A stretch of 64,000 bases of DNA from Pigmentiphaga sp. NML030171 (GTDB taxonomy: Bacteria; Pseudomonadota; Gammaproteobacteria; Burkholderiales; Burkholderiaceae_B), in assembly GCF_002188635.1 (NCBI RefSeq), contig NZ_NINX01000042.1:1-64000 (forward strand), read 5' to 3'. The notes beneath the pieces are model-generated. The model did no database searches. It was not told the origin of the DNA and was given only the letters and a program-made list of their open reading frames with translations. Positions 1-26,907 of this stretch are shown here, in pieces (within the stretch, counting starts at the first letter, position 1; each line of letters begins with the position of its first letter). A program made the translations under genes and the position numbers.

Positions 1-115
1 TTACTCACCCGTTCGCCACTCGCCGCCAGACCGAAGTCCGCGCTGCCGTTCGACTTGCATGTGTAAGGCATGCCGCTAGCGTTCAATCTGAGCCAGGATC
101 AAACTCTTCAGTTCA
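1..115 (-). rRNA. rrs: 16S ribosomal RNA, 5' end only
   Basis: The reverse strand reads as the conserved beginning of bacterial 16S rRNA, including AGAGTTTGATCCTGGCTCAG at about 110 to 91 and the following helix sequence. The gene runs out of the window at position 1, so only about the first 115 bases are present. The exact 5' end is set by alignment to the known start and may be off by a few bases. The variable part is of the Alcaligenaceae type by recollection. Confidence 0.97.
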
Positions 116-4373: not shown

Positions 4374-5108
4374 CTACCAGACGACGGGCTCGCGCCCCTG
4401 CTCCGCCAGCCAGCGATTGGCCTGGGCGAAATGCCCGCAGCCCAGGAACGGCACGGGCGGACGCCGGGCCGACAAGGGCGAGGGATGGTTGGCCAGCAGC
4501 ACCAGATGCCTGCCGCCGGACGGCAGCAGCGCCTGCTTGGCCTGCGCATGGGCGCCCCACAGCATGAAGACCTTGGGCGCGGGCTCGCGCGCCACCGCGG
4601 CGATGACCGCATCGGTGAACGCTTCCCAGCCCCGCTTCGCATGCGAGGCCGGGGCGCCGTCTTCCACGGTAAGCGACGTATTGAGCAGCAGCACGCCCTG
4701 CCTGGCCCATCGCTCGAGGTCGTTGCCGAAGGCGGCGGGGTCGCCGCCCACGCAGGCCGCTACCTCGTTGAAGATATTGCGCAGGCTGGGCGGCCGCCGA
4801 AAGCCGTCGGGCACGGAAAACGCCAGCCCCTGCGCCTGCCCCGGACCGTGATAGGGATCCTGGCCCAGGATCACGACCCGGGTGGAAGCCGGCGTGGCCA
4901 GGTCCAGCGCGCGAAACGGCAGGACCGGATAGACGACGGCGCCCTCTTCCCGGCGCCGGTCGACGAAGCGCAGCAGGGCCTCGAACGCGGGACTGGCCAG
5001 CGTCCCGGCCAACAGCTCGCGCCAGGCAGCCGGCAGACGATCGACGTGCGCCTGCATCGGCTCGTTCAAGCGATTGTCCGGTCCCTGGGCGAAGAGATCG
5101 GGGGTCAC
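4374..5108 (-). CDS. ung: uracil-DNA glycosylase
   Basis: A 244-residue family-1 uracil-DNA glycosylase that removes uracil from DNA for base-excision repair. The water-activating motif GQDPYHG is at 82-88 (catalytic Asp84) and the DNA-minor-groove motif HPSPLSARR lies near the C-terminus. The start is GTG at 5108, overlapping the trpC stop (GTGA), so translation is probably coupled to the end of the trp unit. Length fits the family (about 225-250). Confidence 0.95.
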
Positions 5109-5893
5109 GCGAACAATCGGGCCAGTTCGGCACCCGGATCGGGCGCCCGCATGAAGGCTTCGCCCACCAGGAAGGCATGGACCCCGTGCTCGCGCATCTG
5201 CCGGACTTCAGCCCGGCCCAGGATGCCGCTTTCCGTGACGACCCGCTTGCCGGCGGGAATCCGCGGCAGCAGATCGATGGTGTTCTGCAGGGAAACCTCG
5301 AAAGTCCGCAGGTTGCGGTTGTTGATGCCCAGCAGATTGCTGCGCAGTCGCAGGGCCGTATCCAGTTCCGCCGCATCGTGGACCTCCACCAGCACGTCCA
5401 TGCCGAGATCCATGGCCAGCGCCTCCAGGTCCTGCAATTGCGAGGACTCCAGCGCGGCCACGATCAGCAGGATGCAGTCGGCGCCCATCGCCCGCGCCTC
5501 GATCACCTGGTAGGAATCGACGATGAAGTCCTTGCGCAGCACCGGCAGCGGGCAGGCGGCACGGGCGCGCCGCAGATAATCGAGCGAACCCTGGAAGAAC
5601 TGCACGTCGGTCAGCACCGACAGGCAGGCCGCGCCATGCGAGGCGTACGACGCCGCGATCCCGTCGGGCTGGAAGTTCTCGCGCAGCAGGCCCTTCGAGG
5701 GCGAGGCCTTCTTGATCTCGGCGATGACGCCGGACTGCCCCGCCGCCACCTTGGCCTCGATCGCCTGCGCGAAGCCCCTTACATCCTGCCGCGCCTCGGC
5801 TTCGCGCCGCAGGTCGGATTCGCTGCGAAGCAGCCGCGCGGTGGCGACCTCTTCGGTCTTCGCATCCAGTATGCGTTGAAGAATGTCACTCAT
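5105..5893 (-). CDS. trpC: indole-3-glycerol phosphate synthase
   Basis: A 262-residue TIM-barrel enzyme that converts carboxyphenylaminodeoxyribulose phosphate to indole-3-glycerol phosphate in tryptophan synthesis. The signature [12 protein letters not shown] (58-69) and the catalytic-lysine segment [12 protein letters not shown] are present. It is a stand-alone TrpC without a fused TrpF. It follows trpD by 30 bases and overlaps ung by four. It belongs to the trpG-trpD-trpC unit with its own leader at 7706-7958. Confidence 0.95.
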
Positions 5894-5923: not shown

Positions 5924-6961
5924 CTAGCGCGCGGCCGCCCGCCTGGTGAACGATACGAATTCGTCCAGCCGCGCGCGCGCCGCGCCGCTGGCGATCAGCT
6001 CGAAAGCCTTGCGTATGCCCTCGGCGACCGAGGACACGGTATTGCCGGCGTACATCGCCAGGCCGCCATTCAAGGCGACGATGTCGCGCGCGGGGCCCGG
6101 CACGTTGGACAAGGCCTCCAGCACGAGTTCACGCGACTCATCGCGATTGGCGACCTTCAGGCTGCGATTCGACACCATCTGCAGGCCGAAGTCCTCGGGA
6201 TGAATCTCGTATTCGTGGACCTCGCCGTCGCGCAGCTCGCCCACCATCGTGGCCGCGCCCAGCGAGGCCTCGTCCATGCCGTCCTTGCCGTAGACCACCA
6301 GCACGTGCCTGGATCCCAGGCGTTGCAGCACCCGGACCTGGATGCCGACCAGGTCCGGATGGAACACGCCCATCAGCTGGTTGGCGGCGCCGGCGGGATT
6401 GGTCAGCGGCCCCAGCAGGTTGAAGATGGTGCGCACCGCGAGTTCCTTGCGGATGGGCGCGATGTTCTTCATGGCCGAATGGTGGATGGGGGCGAACATG
6501 AAACCGATGCCGGTGGCCTCTATGCACTCGGCCACGGCTTCGGACGGCAGCATGACGTTGGCGCCCAGCGCCTCCAGCACGTCGGCGCTGCCCGACGACG
6601 ACGACACGCCGCGGTTGCCGTGCTTGGCGATCCTGGCGCCGCCGGCCGCGGCCACGAACATGGCCGCCGTGGAAATATTGAAAGTGTGCGCGCCGTCGCC
6701 GCCGGTGCCGGCCAGGTCCACCAGGCTGTCGGCATCGGCCACCTTCACCCCGTCGGCGAACTCGCGCATCACCTGCGCCGCGGCGGTGATCTCGCCTATG
6801 GTCTCCTTCTTGACGCGCAGGCCCATGATCAAGGCCCCCGCGGTGACGGGCTCCATCTCGCCGCGCATCAGCATGCGCATCAGCGACAGCATCTCGTCGT
6901 GGAAGATCTCGCGGTGTTCGATGCAGCGAACCAGCGCTTCGGTAGGGGTAATGGACACCAT
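5924..6961 (-). CDS. trpD: anthranilate phosphoribosyltransferase
   Basis: A 345-residue enzyme joining anthranilate and PRPP, the second step of tryptophan synthesis. The PRPP-binding motif GTGGDG and the following NIST and KHGNR segments are intact. ATG 6961 is chosen because AAGGAG stands just before it and the length (345) fits the family. An in-frame ATG at 6994 would overlap the end of trpG and add eleven atypical residues. It lies 29 bases after trpG, so one transcript is expected. Confidence 0.95.
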
Positions 6962-6990: not shown

Positions 6991-7560
6991 TCATACGTTC
7001 AATTGCAGAAAATTGCGCAGCAAGGCATGGCCGTGCTCGCTCAGGACGGATTCGGGATGGAACTGCACGCCGTAGACGGGAAGGCTGCGATGGCGCACGC
7101 CCATGATTTCCCCGTCGTCGGTCTGCGCCGTCACCTTCAGGCAATCGGGCAGGCTCTCGCGTTCGATGGCGAGCGAGTGATACCGGATGACCGTGTAGGG
7201 CGACGGCAAGTCCCGGAACACGTCGCTGCCGCCATGGGCGATGGCCGACGTCTTGCCGTGCATGATCTGCCGCGCGCGGACGATTTTGCCACCAAACGCA
7301 GCGCCGATGGACTGGTGGCCCAGGCACACGCCCAGGATGGGCACCTTGCCGGCATGGGCCTGGATGAGCGGCACCGAGATGCCGGCCTCGGCCGGCGAGC
7401 ACGGCCCGGGCGAGATGCAGATGCGCTCGGGCGCCAGGGCCGCGACTTCGTCGAGCGTGATCTGGTCATTGCGGAACACCCGCACGTCGGCGCCCAGTTC
7501 GCCGAAATACTGGACCAGGTTGTAGGTGAATGAATCGTAGTTGTCGATCATCAGCAGCAT
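6991..7560 (-). CDS. trpG: anthranilate synthase component II (glutamine amidotransferase)
   Basis: A 189-residue class I glutamine amidotransferase that supplies ammonia to TrpE. The nucleophile Cys79 lies in GVCLGHQ and the His-Glu of the triad in HPESV near residue 170. The start ATG 7560 gives the usual [16 protein letters not shown]-terminus and has AAGGG about nine bases upstream. ATG 7569 (adding MTD) is possible but would sit directly on that site. Its partner trpE is about 17.6 kb away at 25152, an unusual separation. A leader-peptide region precedes this gene. Confidence 0.95.
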
Positions 7561-7705
7561 GTCGGTCATCCCTTGGAATCGAGCCGGCCATGGGCCGGGA
7601 ACACATCGGCGATCGCGCCGTCCGCGAACGGGCGCCGCCACGCGAACGACGAGCCGCGGCAGGCATGCGCGGGGGTTCGGCTAGCAAGGGGAAGTACTGC
7701 TGGAT

Positions 7706-7832
7706 GCACGGGCAATCTCCTGGATCGGGAGCCGCCGTGCCGGGGAGCTGTGTGAATTCGCGACCTGCCACCGGGTACGGCGGCAGGGTGCAGTTTCGAA
7801 CCGCAACGACGTGCCGCTTCCTAGCGGAAGCG
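7706..7832 (-). promoter_or_regulatory. hairpin series between the trpG-side leader peptide and trpG
   Basis: Three inverted repeats follow the short Trp-Trp peptide on the reverse strand. The first (7815-7832) is a CGCTTCC/GGAAGCG stem with a four-base loop, overlapping the peptide's stop codon and the codons after its two Trp codons. The second (7764-7787) is a nine-pair stem, CCTGCC..CC with GG..GGCAGG. The third (7706-7740) is a GCACGG/CCGTGC stem with an inner CTCC/GGAG. This is the kind of layout used in ribosome-mediated attenuation. No clear T-run follows any stem, so the terminator itself is unproven. Confidence 0.5.
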
Positions 7833-7871
7833 CCACCACTGAGCTGCTTGATTCGGAACGATGCGGTTCAT
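7821..7871 (-). CDS. putative trp leader peptide upstream of trpGDC
   Basis: A 16-residue reading frame, MNRIVPNQAAQWWRFR, begins at ATG 7871 with AGAAAG a few bases upstream and ends at TAG 7821. Two adjacent Trp codons (residues 12 and 13) sit just before a hairpin that covers the stop codon. It lies about 50 bases downstream of a good promoter match and 260 bases upstream of trpG. This is the expected form of a ribosome-stalling trp attenuator peptide. With only one Trp pair, chance cannot be excluded as firmly as for the leader at 26830. Confidence 0.65.
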   Translation of the reverse strand: MNRIVPNQAAQWWRFR

Positions 7872-7928
7872 GTCTTTCTGGCGCGAGTTGGGAGCCGCGG
7901 CAAGGTTGCGCGTTTCTGCTCCGGGGCG

Positions 7929-7958
7929 ATTCTATCGCGACCGCGATTCGCTTGTCGA
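7929..7958 (-). promoter_or_regulatory. candidate promoter of the trpGDC transcript
   Basis: On the reverse strand TCGACA (7953-7958) and TAGAAT (7929-7934) are spaced by 18 bases, each matching five of six consensus positions for sigma-70. Transcription would begin near 7922 and give a leader of about 50 bases before the short Trp-Trp peptide. This would free trpGDC from the trpE promoter. Confidence 0.55.
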
Positions 7959-7991
7959 ACGGAAGAAATGGGGACGGAACAATCGGCGGCC

Positions 7992-8015
7992 ACGGGCCCC
8001 GCAGGCCCGGCCCGT
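7992..8015 (-). terminator. possible hairpin terminator after the CoA-transferase gene
   Basis: An ACGGGCC/GGCCCGT stem overlaps the stop codon of the CoA-transferase gene. It could separate the catabolic transcript from the trpG leader transcript. There is no T-run after it, so it is at best a weak or Rho-assisted terminator. Confidence 0.3.
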
Positions 8016-9262
8016 CAAATGCCCGCTGCCCGGGCCAGGGCCTCGCGATGCTCGGGCGCCGCGATCGCCAGCATGCGCTGCGCCCGCTGGCGCAGCGTCA
8101 ATCCGCGCAGGTCGGCCGCGCCGTGCTCGGTCACGACGATGCCGGCGTCGCTTCTGGGCAGGGTGACGGGGCCGGACAAGCTCGCGACGATACGACTGGC
8201 CCCGCCCGCCGTCGCGGGCAGCGCAATGACGGGGACCCCGTCCCGGCTCCTGCCGGCGGCCCGCATGAAGTCGGCTATCCCCCCCACCGCGCCGACATAG
8301 CGGCCGCCGGCCACCTCGGAATTGACCTGGCCGGTCAGATCCACCTCGACCGCGGAGTTGATGGCGACGAACCGGCCCAGGCGGTCCAGGACCGGGCCCG
8401 CATGGGTGTAGCCTGTCTCGCGCAACCGCACCGCCGGGTTCTTGTGCACGAAGCGCCGCACCCGCTCTCCGCCGAACAACAGGCCGCCCACAGTCACGCC
8501 GGTGTCGATCGGCTTGCGCCGGTTGGTGATCACGCCAGCCTCGGTCAGCCACACCATGCGCTCGCTCAGGCTGCCCGAGTGGACGCCCAGGTCCCGGTGA
8601 TCCCCGAGCGCGGCCAGGACGGCATCGGGAATCGTGCCGATCCCGGTCTGGATCGTGGCGCCGTCCGGCACCAGGCCGGCCACGTGGCGGCCGATCCGCT
8701 GCGCCGTTGCGTCGGGTTCGGCCGGCGCTCCGGGCACCGCCGGTCCGCACGAAGCAGGCACCAGTAGGTCGACGTCGCCTTCGCGCAGATAAGGGCCGCC
8801 GAAGGTCCAGGGCACGTCCTCGTCCACTTCCGCGATCACCGTCCGGGCCGCGTCCAGCGCGGACACCAGGTAGTCGCGGGCCATCCCCAGGCTGTAGCGC
8901 CCCGCCTCGTCGGGTTTCGACAACTGCAGGAACAGCACGTCGACCTTGAGCCGCCCTGCGCGAATCATCCGGTCCATCTCGGAGTAGTGCGCCGGCAGGA
9001 TGTCCATGACGCCCGAGCGCAGCAGCGTCCGGTTGGAGCCCGCGCCGCAGTATCCGACGAAATCCATGTCGTCCGCCAGCTCGGGCGCCAGGACCGGCTC
9101 GAGGCCATGGCCGATACCCAGGAAGACGCGCACCCGCCCGACGCGGCGGCGCTGCTCCACCAGCGCGCGGATCAGCGTCAGGGGCTGCGCCTGCGCCTGC
9201 CCCCACAGCACGGTGTCCCCGGGCCGGATGTGCGGCGCGAGGTCGAACACGGCGGGCTCCAT
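8015..9262 (-). CDS. acetyl-CoA hydrolase/CoA-transferase family protein
   Basis: A 415-residue protein of the acetyl-CoA hydrolase/4-hydroxybutyrate CoA-transferase family, which moves CoA between carboxylic acids. Family features are the N-terminal GDTVLWGQAQAQP segment, an LGVHSGSLSERM segment in the middle and a C-terminal QVNSE followed by YVGAVGGIADFMRAAG. The start is ATG 9262; an in-frame GTG at 9274 is possible and neither has a clear ribosome site. It follows the acyl-CoA dehydrogenase by 35 bases, so they probably form a two-gene unit that loads CoA onto an acid substrate. Confidence 0.85.
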   Translation of the reverse strand: MEPAVFDLAPHIRPGDTVLWGQAQAQPLTLIRALVEQRRRVGRVRVFLGIGHGLEPVLAPELADDMDFVGYCGAGSNRTLLRSGVMDILPAHYSEMDRMIRAGRLKVDVLFLQLSKPDEAGRYSLGMARDYLVSALDAARTVIAEVDEDVPWTFGGPYLREGDVDLLVPASCGPAVPGAPAEPDATAQRIGRHVAGLVPDGATIQTGIGTIPDAVLAALGDHRDLGVHSGSLSERMVWLTEAGVITNRRKPIDTGVTVGGLLFGGERVRRFVHKNPAVRLRETGYTHAGPVLDRLGRFVAINSAVEVDLTGQVNSEVAGGRYVGAVGGIADFMRAAGRSRDGVPVIALPATAGGASRIVASLSGPVTLPRSDAGIVVTEHGAADLRGLTLRQRAQRMLAIAAPEHREALARAAGI

Positions 9263-25151: not shown

Positions 25152-26672
25152 TCATACCGGATCGTCCAGTCCCAGCTGCACCTGCTCGGCCGCCCGCAGC
25201 ACCGCCCGCGCCTTGGCCTCCGTCTCCAGCCATTCCTTCTCGGGTTCCGAATCCGCCACCACGCCGGCGGCCGCCTGCGCGTACAGCATGCCGTTCTTGA
25301 TCACGCCGGTGCGGATGGCGATGGCCAGGTCCATTTCGCCGCCGTAGCTCAGGTAGCCCGCCGCCCCGCCGTATACGCAGCGCCGTACGGGCTCCAGTTC
25401 GTCGATCAGTTCCAGCGCCCGCACCTTGGGGGCACCCGACAGCGTGCCGGCCGGGAAGGTCGCGCGCAGCACGTCCATGGAACTCATGTCCCGGCGCAGC
25501 AGCCCGGTGACGTTGGACACCAGGTGCATGACGTGTGAATAGCGCTCGATCGCCAACTGGTCGGTCACCTGCACCGAGCCGATTTCGGCGATGCGGCCGA
25601 CGTCGTTGCGGGCCAGGTCGATCAGCATGACATGCTCGGCGATCTCCTTGGGATCGGCGCGCAGTTCCTCGGCCAGTGCCAGATCTTCCTCGGGCGTGCC
25701 GCCACGCGGCCGGGTGCCCGCCAGCGGCCGGATGGTGACCCGGCTGCGGGTCTCGCCCTGTTCCTGCACCGCCTCCTGCCGCACCAGGATCTCGGGCGAG
25801 GAACCGACGACGTGGAAATCGCCGAAGTTCCAGAAGTACATGTACGGCGACGGATTGAGCGAGCGCAGCGCGCGGTACAGCGACAGCGGCGAATCGCGGA
25901 AGGGCTTGGCGATGACCTGGCCCACCTGGACCTGCATCAGGTCGCCGGCGGCGATGTATTCCTTGGCCTTGCGCACGGCCGCCAGATAGTCCGGCTTCTG
26001 GAAGTCGCGGCGGGTCTCGGTGACCATGCTGGCCTGGCTGTACGGGATCTCGGCCGGGCGGCGCAGCTGGGCACGCAGGTCCAGCAGGCGGGTGCGGGCG
26101 CGGGCATAGGCTTCGCGCTGGCCGGGGTCCGCGTAGACCATCAGATAAAGCCGCCCGCTCAGGTTGTCGATGATGGCCAGTTCGTCGATCAACAGCAGCA
26201 GCAGGTCGGGCACCGGATCGCCCATGCCGGCGGGGTCGGGCTTGGTGCAGGGGCCCAGCCGGGGTTCGATGTGGCGGACCATGTCATGGCCGAAGTAGCC
26301 GGCCAGGCCGCCCACGAAACGGGGCATCCCGGGACGCAGCGCCACCTTGAAGCGTTTCTGGTATTCGGCGATGAAAGCGAGCGGATCGCCCTCGTGGCGC
26401 TCGACCACCTGGTCGTCGGTCACCACCTCGACGTTGCGGCCGCGCGCCCGGATGAAGGTGCGCGCGGGCAGGCCGATGAAGGAGTAGCGCCCGAAACGCT
26501 CGCCGCCCACCACGGACTCCAGCAGGCAGCTCATGGCGCCGCGCCGGGGCCCGCTCTGGGCCAGTTTCAGATAGAGCCCGAGCGGGGTATCCAGGTCGGC
26601 ATAGGTTTCGGACACCAGCGGGATGCGGTTGTATCCCTGGGAAGCCAGGGCCTGGAATTCGACTTCGGTCAT
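25152..26672 (-). CDS. trpE: anthranilate synthase component I
   Basis: A 506-residue chorismate-using enzyme, the first committed step of tryptophan synthesis. The feedback-inhibition element LLES followed by RYSFIG is present near residue 50, so Trp inhibition is expected. The chorismate site GTLSGAPKVRALELIDELEP is in the C-terminal half. ATG 26672 has GAGG about six bases upstream and gives a normal length. A leader peptide with six Trp codons lies 157 bases upstream. Its partner trpG is not next to it but at 6991-7560, beyond the catabolic block. Confidence 0.96.
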   Translation of the reverse strand: MTEVEFQALASQGYNRIPLVSETYADLDTPLGLYLKLAQSGPRRGAMSCLLESVVGGERFGRYSFIGLPARTFIRARGRNVEVVTDDQVVERHEGDPLAFIAEYQKRFKVALRPGMPRFVGGLAGYFGHDMVRHIEPRLGPCTKPDPAGMGDPVPDLLLLLIDELAIIDNLSGRLYLMVYADPGQREAYARARTRLLDLRAQLRRPAEIPYSQASMVTETRRDFQKPDYLAAVRKAKEYIAAGDLMQVQVGQVIAKPFRDSPLSLYRALRSLNPSPYMYFWNFGDFHVVGSSPEILVRQEAVQEQGETRSRVTIRPLAGTRPRGGTPEEDLALAEELRADPKEIAEHVMLIDLARNDVGRIAEIGSVQVTDQLAIERYSHVMHLVSNVTGLLRRDMSSMDVLRATFPAGTLSGAPKVRALELIDELEPVRRCVYGGAAGYLSYGGEMDLAIAIRTGVIKNGMLYAQAAAGVVADSEPEKEWLETEAKARAVLRAAEQVQLGLDDPV

Positions 26673-26741
26673 GCTTGCCTCGTATCGCGTGGAATGTTGG
26701 AGTTCCGCCGGCCCCTGTCCGGAACGCACGAGCAGACATGC

Positions 26742-26765
26742 CCCGACGGTCCGGCAGGACTCGGG
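26742..26765 (-). promoter_or_regulatory. hairpin between trpL and trpE, candidate attenuator element
   Basis: On the reverse strand CCCGA-GTCC-TGCC-GGAC-CG-TCGGG folds into a nine-pair stem with a two-base bulge, located between the leader peptide stop and trpE. It could be the terminator or a pause/sequestering stem of the attenuator. It is not followed by a T-run, so a classical terminator is not shown. Confidence 0.45.
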
Positions 26766-26829
26766 CGGGGAGATTCGTATCGGGATTTGCTAGGGGCCGC
26801 TTAGCGCGCTGGCTTACGGCCGGAGAGAA

Positions 26830-26907
26830 TCACCACCACCCGGCAGACGAACGCCACCAGCGCCACCAGGCGCAGGTTTGAGCGGACGACCGAGTCATGG
26901 CAACCAT
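26830..26907 (-). CDS. trpL: trp operon leader peptide with three Trp-Trp pairs
   Basis: A 25-residue frame starts at ATG 26907, 27 bases after the gph stop, and ends at TGA 26830, 157 bases before trpE. It has Trp at residues 14, 15, 17, 18, 24 and 25, the last two directly before the stop. Six Trp in 25 residues directly upstream of trpE is the signature of ribosome-mediated transcription attenuation: low charged tRNA-Trp stalls the ribosome and allows trpE expression. An internal ATG at residue 4 is an alternative start. No clear Shine-Dalgarno is seen for either. Confidence 0.9.
   Translation of the reverse strand: MVAMTRSSAQTCAWWRWWRSSAGWW

Follow-up and report, generated by a model that had tools for sequence, protein, structure and literature searches.

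A tryptophan-codon leader RNA that probably gives trpGDC its own control at translation start where trpG no longer follows trpE

The window, i.e. the whole stretch of 64,000 nucleotides of Pigmentiphaga sp. NML030171 analysed here, comes from a genome of 5.86 Mb and carries two separate groups of tryptophan genes on its minus strand (Table 1). The 17.6-kb interval between trpE and trpG contains genes for an acyl-CoA dehydrogenase, a CoA-transferase, a TctC receptor and others. The start of a 16S rRNA gene is also seen at the edge of the window (1-114, minus strand, 84.8 bits). Both trpE and trpG are preceded by a leader ORF, and the two leader peptides differ in sequence, as the preliminary description of this DNA had stated.

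Table 1. Genes and leader features in the window. Percentages of paired cells and two-sided changes refer to the alignment of 43 related elements; SD, Shine-Dalgarno.
Feature	Position	Strand	Remarks
trpC	5105..5893	-	NF001373, 414.4 bits (cut-off 317)
trpD	5924..6961	-	TIGR01245, 394.8 bits (cut-off 199.05)
trpG	6991..7560	-	PF00117, E 1.1e-61; alternative start ATG 7569
uORF2, second small ORF, 47 codons	7566..7709	-	GTG start; TGA stop overlaps ATG 7569, just before trpG ATG 7560
Segment 4 (GGCACGGCGGCUCC) paired with SD GGAG (7720-7717) and next GUG start	7706..7740	-	SD hairpin, 95.3% of cells paired
Hairpin P3	7764..7787	-	87.0% of cells paired; two-sided changes in 4 of 7 pairs
Hairpin P2	7789..7805	-	86% of cells paired
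Hairpin P1 over leader end and stop codon	7815..7832	-	99.3% of cells paired; two-sided changes in 2 of 7 pairs
Trp leader ORF MNRIVPNQAAQWWRFR, 16 residues	7821..7871	-	ATG 7871, stop 7821; Trp12-Trp13 at 7838-7833
Promoter-like site TCGACA-18-TAGAAT	7929..7958	-	10 of 12 matches
trpE	25152..26672	-	PF00425, E 3.8e-85
trpE leader ORF MTRSSAQTCAWWRWWRSSAGWW	26830..26898	-	possible earlier start ATG 26907

The preliminary description had proposed a separate, second Trp leader before trpG, consisting of a promoter, a 16-residue peptide with Trp-Trp near its end, a stem over the stop codon and two more stems. All of these parts were located, and the leader frame runs from ATG to stop as claimed. 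The promoter match was found once, against 0.1 +/- 0.2 expected from 50 shuffles. The stems are also present, but the one nearest to trpG turned out to be a hairpin of the Shine-Dalgarno (SD) sequence and a start codon. The 5' arm and loop of P3 form segment 3, which has two alternative partners, segment 2 (after the leader stop) and segment 4. The minimum free energy of the leader region is -67.7 kcal/mol (z -2.9 versus 200 shuffles), and a covariance model of the element matches positions 7692-7838 with E 1.6e-41, the window sequence being itself a training member of that model. In Rfam 15 no family reached its gathering score, and with positions 7500-8100 alone the sole entry at E <= 1 was a Trypanosomatid snoRNA family (E 0.76), which is below its cut-off.

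In E. coli, trpL combines a short ORF containing tandem Trp codons with a hairpin near the stop codon and with competing RNA segments. The element before trpG resembles such a leader in the first two respects and has complementary segments that may compete likewise, and its short tandem-Trp ORF upstream of trpG is what is expected of a ribosome-mediated trp attenuator. It differs from trpL in that it lacks a U-run, ends in an SD/start hairpin, contains a second small frame and has no Rfam match. If it were a classical transcription attenuator, one of its stems would act as an intrinsic terminator and stop transcription under plentiful tryptophan; segments 1:2 and 2:3 and hairpin P3 do resemble those of such an attenuator. 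However, the terminator scan found no T-rich terminator on the minus strand between 7560 and 8100, and by reading, no more than 2-3 T come after P3 in the aligned relatives.

Two other kinds of leaders bear on this explanation. Among the 67 genomes examined, 60 have a trpE leader with a WRWW-type motif, and in 46 of the 60 a GGG end is followed by a T run. Every one of the 8 from the window's genus in the set, G000 among them, belongs to the 14 trpE leaders that lack a T run; in the window the corresponding region (26720-26900) has a hairpin but no T run. Besides, seven weakly matching loci of the covariance model outside the family were read (L251-L257), and five of them precede trpS (L251-L254 and L256, identified by TIGR00233 above its cut-off; model matches with E 2e-12 to 5e-5). 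These trpS leaders have Trp-Trp (Lys-Trp in L252) and a P3-like hairpin, which by reading is followed by T7 in L251-L253; no Rfam match was found for L251-L254. The trpS leader is possibly a cousin of the trpG element. L255 had no family match at 1e-20, while L257 and L295-L299 were read as noise. In the window's own genome, no trpS leader was seen by eye in the 350 nt before the gene that we take, by its motif, to be TrpS-like. A derivation of the trpG leader from the trpE leader was rejected, as their layouts differ. Both the trpS leaders and the trpE leaders with T runs favour a terminator in the trpG leader, and we consider it unlikely given the sequence that follows P3. What stands of the attenuator that had been proposed is the Trp-codon leader; a terminator-type device is improbable by its look.

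To figure out the distribution of the element, trpG and trpE were sought in 151 genomes of the family and matched in 146 and 147 of them, respectively. Genomes were called split when the two genes lay >0.7 kb apart or on different contigs, and adjacent when they lay <0.2 kb apart, by eye from tables. There were 53 split genomes, including 4 added species of the window's genus whose trpE is 13-28 kb away; two of the 53 (G038 and G051) were dropped because contig ends were too near trpG, which left 51 assessable ones. It turned out that 43 of the 51 carry a related element of about 150 nt before trpG, and none of the 33 adjacent genomes whose upstream DNA was read has it. The element is absent from G144, G032, G111, G147, G034, G131, G090 and G145. 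In G145 (L194), reading shows a decayed element, of which only the 3' half with segment 4 and the SD is left before trpG. Within the window's genus, nine species have both the split arrangement and the leader, and two genomes, G116 and G151, have adjacent genes and no leader. A leader frame missing from species with the same arrangement had been set beforehand as the result that would speak against the leader, and the frame is present in the large majority of them.

The covariance model gave the same picture. Searching 268 family genomes produced 52 strong matches (E < 1e-24), spread over the 43 training genomes and 8 more (51 in total), and 250 genomes of another family produced 6 strong matches, all before trpG. 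In 13 of these 14 genomes outside training, the element and trpE are 1.4-85 kb apart or on different contigs, the exception being G172. Among 274 genomes of the class the only strong match was the window's own, the next best having E 2.7e-5. On a TrpE tree of 75 rows, which excludes G155 (a short TrpE piece) and all genomes lacking a TrpE piece of 380 residues, the label "split with leader" needs at least 13 changes. Fifteen independent contrasts could be drawn on this tree, of which 11 agree with a link between leader and split, none opposes it and 4 show no difference (p 0.001). The TrpG tree also needs 13 label changes, just 2 of which are forced by its well-supported branches, so leader and trpG may or may not have spread jointly as a single transferred unit. 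Where trpE and trpG are apart, the cut-off trpGDC half usually has a tryptophan-type leader of its own.

All 43 related elements read WWR-x-x-stop with CGC as the Arg codon throughout; TGG TGG CG belonged to the search pattern, and only the rest is independent of it. The best promoter site contains TCGACA in 23 of the 43, and the mean best promoter score is 8.74, compared with 6.38 +/- 0.16 for shuffled letters (30 rounds). It is extremely improbable that a functionless Trp-Trp frame merely arose by chance among GC-rich stems. GC-rich DNA commonly has stems and long frames, which partly explains the length of the second frame, but the element is conserved in two families and tied to the split arrangement, and the comparative counts speak against chance.

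Across the alignment the common architecture is P1, P2, P3 and segment 4, followed by an SD and an ATG, GTG or TTG start. Pairing was counted on the 43-sequence alignment, which was not fitted to the structure, and the pair controls leave kinship in. Segment 4 can pair either with the P3 arm and loop (the 3:4 helix, 94.6% of cells paired) or with the SD region. In the main structure, 9 of 24 pairs show two-sided changes (2 of 500 shuffles as high, kinship not removed), one of them in the SD hairpin, and in the alternative structure 6 of 28 do (30 of 500 shuffles as high, kinship not removed). Further pair types in the main structure did not exceed the shuffles (334 of 500 as high). The SD carries an exact GGAG in 37 of the 43, and its start region pairs better with its own partner (-13.67 kcal/mol) than with swapped ones (-13.37 +/- 0.09 kcal/mol), beating 200 of 200.

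In four genomes (G006, G062, G068 and G129) the sequestered SD and start are those of trpG itself or lie in frame just ahead of it. In the other 39 the sequestered start opens a short second frame, and in 33 of these 39 the end of that frame falls between -30 and +12 nt relative to trpG (14.0 on average in shuffles, maximum 20). A frame that reaches as far as trpG is common by chance (shuffles: 22.9, maximum 31), and the trpG region is also reached in frame +2 in 30 of 39 and in frame +1 in 20 of 39, so with these mixed controls the position of the frame end near trpG is suggestive. As a conserved protein, uORF2 was rejected, with no codon-position bias in 12 comparisons.

The leader might also act mainly in trans as a small RNA or a peptide, and there is a precedent for it: in S. 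meliloti the trpL RNA begins at the leader ATG, and rnTrpL and peTrpL act in trans, as reported in PMC7298713. In 8 of the 43 relatives (G029, G052, G062, G070, G080, G088, G093 and G129) a gap of 6-8 nt separates the end of the -10 box from the leader ATG. Transcription may therefore start at the ATG itself in these genomes, and the leader may be translated from leaderless RNA. However, the N-terminus of the peptide is poorly conserved while the conserved RNA extends into the start codon, which indicates action in cis and makes a mainly trans-acting leader very unlikely.

Rho-dependent attenuation is another explanation, in which a C-rich stretch before trpG would recruit Rho when the second frame is left untranslated. 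The stretch between SD and trpG averages 39% C and 25% G, with C exceeding G in 38 of 39, and the missing U-run is in line with it. Four genomes, however, have no such stretch, and base composition alone is weak evidence, which leaves this explanation rather unlikely.

Taken as a whole, the sequence evidence suggests that the element is probably a leader RNA with Trp codons that places trpGDC under separate tryptophan control, exerted at translation start, where trpG no longer follows trpE. In this mechanism, the RNA would start near 7922 and the 16-codon leader would be translated, the ribosome stalling at Trp12-Trp13 when charged tRNA-Trp is short. The position of the ribosome would select among the mutually exclusive helices P1, 2:3, P3 and 3:4, and segment 4, the last strand, would otherwise mask the SD and the start codon. 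The output would be translation start at the masked site, directly of trpG in the four genomes and elsewhere of the short second frame, which in most cases ends at or near trpG and may be coupled to it; its translation may alternatively shield the C-rich RNA from Rho.

The complementary segments are conserved, but equilibrium folding showed no switch between the helices. The probability of a free SD was about 0.1 on average with no ribosome, with a ribosome at Trp and with a ribosome at the stop; exposure was higher with the stalled ribosome than with the one at the stop in 4 of 43 and the reverse in 2 of 43. Forcing the 2:3 helix did not free the SD (1 of 43 up, 5 of 43 down), and with the 3:4 helix forced, for which the median cost was 4.4 kcal/mol, it became freer in 17 of 43. 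As the SD is covered at every ribosome position tried, the switch is computationally unsupported; co-transcriptional folding, a pseudoknot or Rho coupling are possible ways to achieve it. We have good confidence in the identity of the element as a Trp leader of trpGDC and much less in the ribosome-stall switch itself. The element, absent from Rfam 15, appears from its anatomy to act at translation start.

What's more, three genomes (G785, G192 and G204) point to a possible origin of the leader. In each of them an ICE-type integrase lies inside the 5' end of trpG, and the opposite end of the ICE carries a promoter, a Trp leader and a complete trpG start. The ICE separates trpE from trpG in two of the three, G785 (from the other family) and G192. 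There, a truncated trpG start stands behind trpE, and next comes a tyrosine integrase that begins 156 nt (G785) or 205 nt (G192) past the end of the trpE match; at the far end topB, PFL_4669, STY4528, parB and parA adjoin the Trp leader, the second frame and the complete trpG start. Both ends lie on one contig in G785 (L323, L342), with about 84 kb between integrase and leader, and on two contigs in G192 (L324, L343). Although the two genomes belong to different families, the 1,451-base stretches around their leaders and into trpG are 93.9% identical. In G204 (L276, L277, L321, L322) the integrase end cuts trpG just after trpG's own leader, and a different leader, MNFSATSNLRWWWRFS, comes with the other end; the two ends and trpE are on separate contigs. 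The markers of G204 were identified by profile, with parB (TIGR03764) and PFL_4669 (TIGR03761) above their cut-offs as well as topB and a tyrosine integrase, and those of G192, G785 and G172 by similarity to them. The three elements resemble PFGI-1-type ICEs, with parB and PFL_4669 at one end and the integrase at the other, and differ from them in having the 5' end of trpG as their target and a Trp leader at one end.

Two further genomes show other arrangements. In G172, trpE and trpG form an intact, adjacent pair; the element lies elsewhere beside ICE genes, with no integrase at E 1e-100; its Trp leader (L278, L331) is at the ICE end between two inverted copies of a transposase-like frame. 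In G032 (L348), a degenerate trpG start comes after trpE, and behind it lies a different integrase (47% identical); the trpG gene, about 32 kb off, has no leader, so an insertion need not bring one.

Trp leaders of this kind could have arrived with mobile elements that insert into trpG, bringing a promoter and a Trp leader that would keep the cut-off trpGDC expressed and Trp-controlled, and the resident leaders of the group, including the window's, could be remains of them. We put this forward tentatively, as something that falls a little short of probable. The first codon of TrpG at the aligned position is not ATG in 27 of 43 split genomes with the leader, 2 of 33 adjacent ones and 0 of 9 split ones without the element (p 2e-7 for the first two, not corrected for kinship), as expected of replaced starts. 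TrpG of the window's genus has ATG at this position. Against a general ICE origin, a search with the G204 markers in 46 loci and the window matched only G785, G192 and G172, and neither these markers nor kin of the integrases were found in the window or the other old-split loci scanned; at E 1e-100 the window's genome has no close integrase kin. Besides, no second copy of the trpG start (19 of 26 matches) was found in 31 trpE-trpG loci, and a search for a trpG start up to 300 nt from where trpE ends clearly exceeded shuffles in G192, G785 and G172 (its intact pair) alone. The alternative is that the split is ancestral and the leader was lost repeatedly on re-joining.

The preliminary description knew of no case with two such attenuators in this group, which may hold for the group, but the title of Olekhnovich & Gussin (2001, J Bacteriol 183:3256), as cited in PMC8297930, speaks of attenuation for trpE as well as trpGDC in P. 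putida. In the window, trpGDC stands away from trpE behind a leader of its own, which is the P. putida arrangement, where trpE and trpGDC are separate operons, each said to be attenuated; this likeness is drawn by title and not by sequence. For P. aeruginosa biofilms treated with azithromycin, a figure legend of PMC8297930 also refers to premature 3' ends and to a potential uORF upstream of trpGDC. In P. aeruginosa, the trpE-trpG gap is described as containing a phiCTX-like prophage (PMC5467263) or an R-pyocin cluster (PMC7344871), so a phage-derived insert sits between trpE and trpG there too. According to PMC7298713, only trpE(G) among the three trp operons of S. meliloti is attenuated; the likeness is a Trp leader before part of a split pathway, whereas here leaders stand on both halves. 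B. subtilis TrpG is reported to be controlled by TRAP at the ribosome-binding site (Du et al. 1997), which is likewise a separate control of TrpG at translation start, mediated there by a protein and here, by anatomy, by codons. PMC4686621, in the part seen, names trpG only beside a hrp cluster. A literature search that covered few subscription journals returned no report of a trpG leader in Burkholderiales or of an ICE in trpG.

In conclusion, the idea of a dual leader has a precedent in P. putida, and what is new is an ICE inserted in trpG whose end bears both a Trp leader and a complete trpG start. It is plausible that the two leaders keep TrpE and TrpG in balance, as the preliminary description had supposed. 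The split loci form a repeated natural experiment, in which an operon is cut between two subunits of one enzyme and an amino-acid-type leader stands before the severed half. Judging by the ICE cases, a mobile element may be able to limit the damage that it does on insertion, as it supplies the interrupted pathway with a regulator, and the old question of how operons split yet stay coordinated becomes directly testable.
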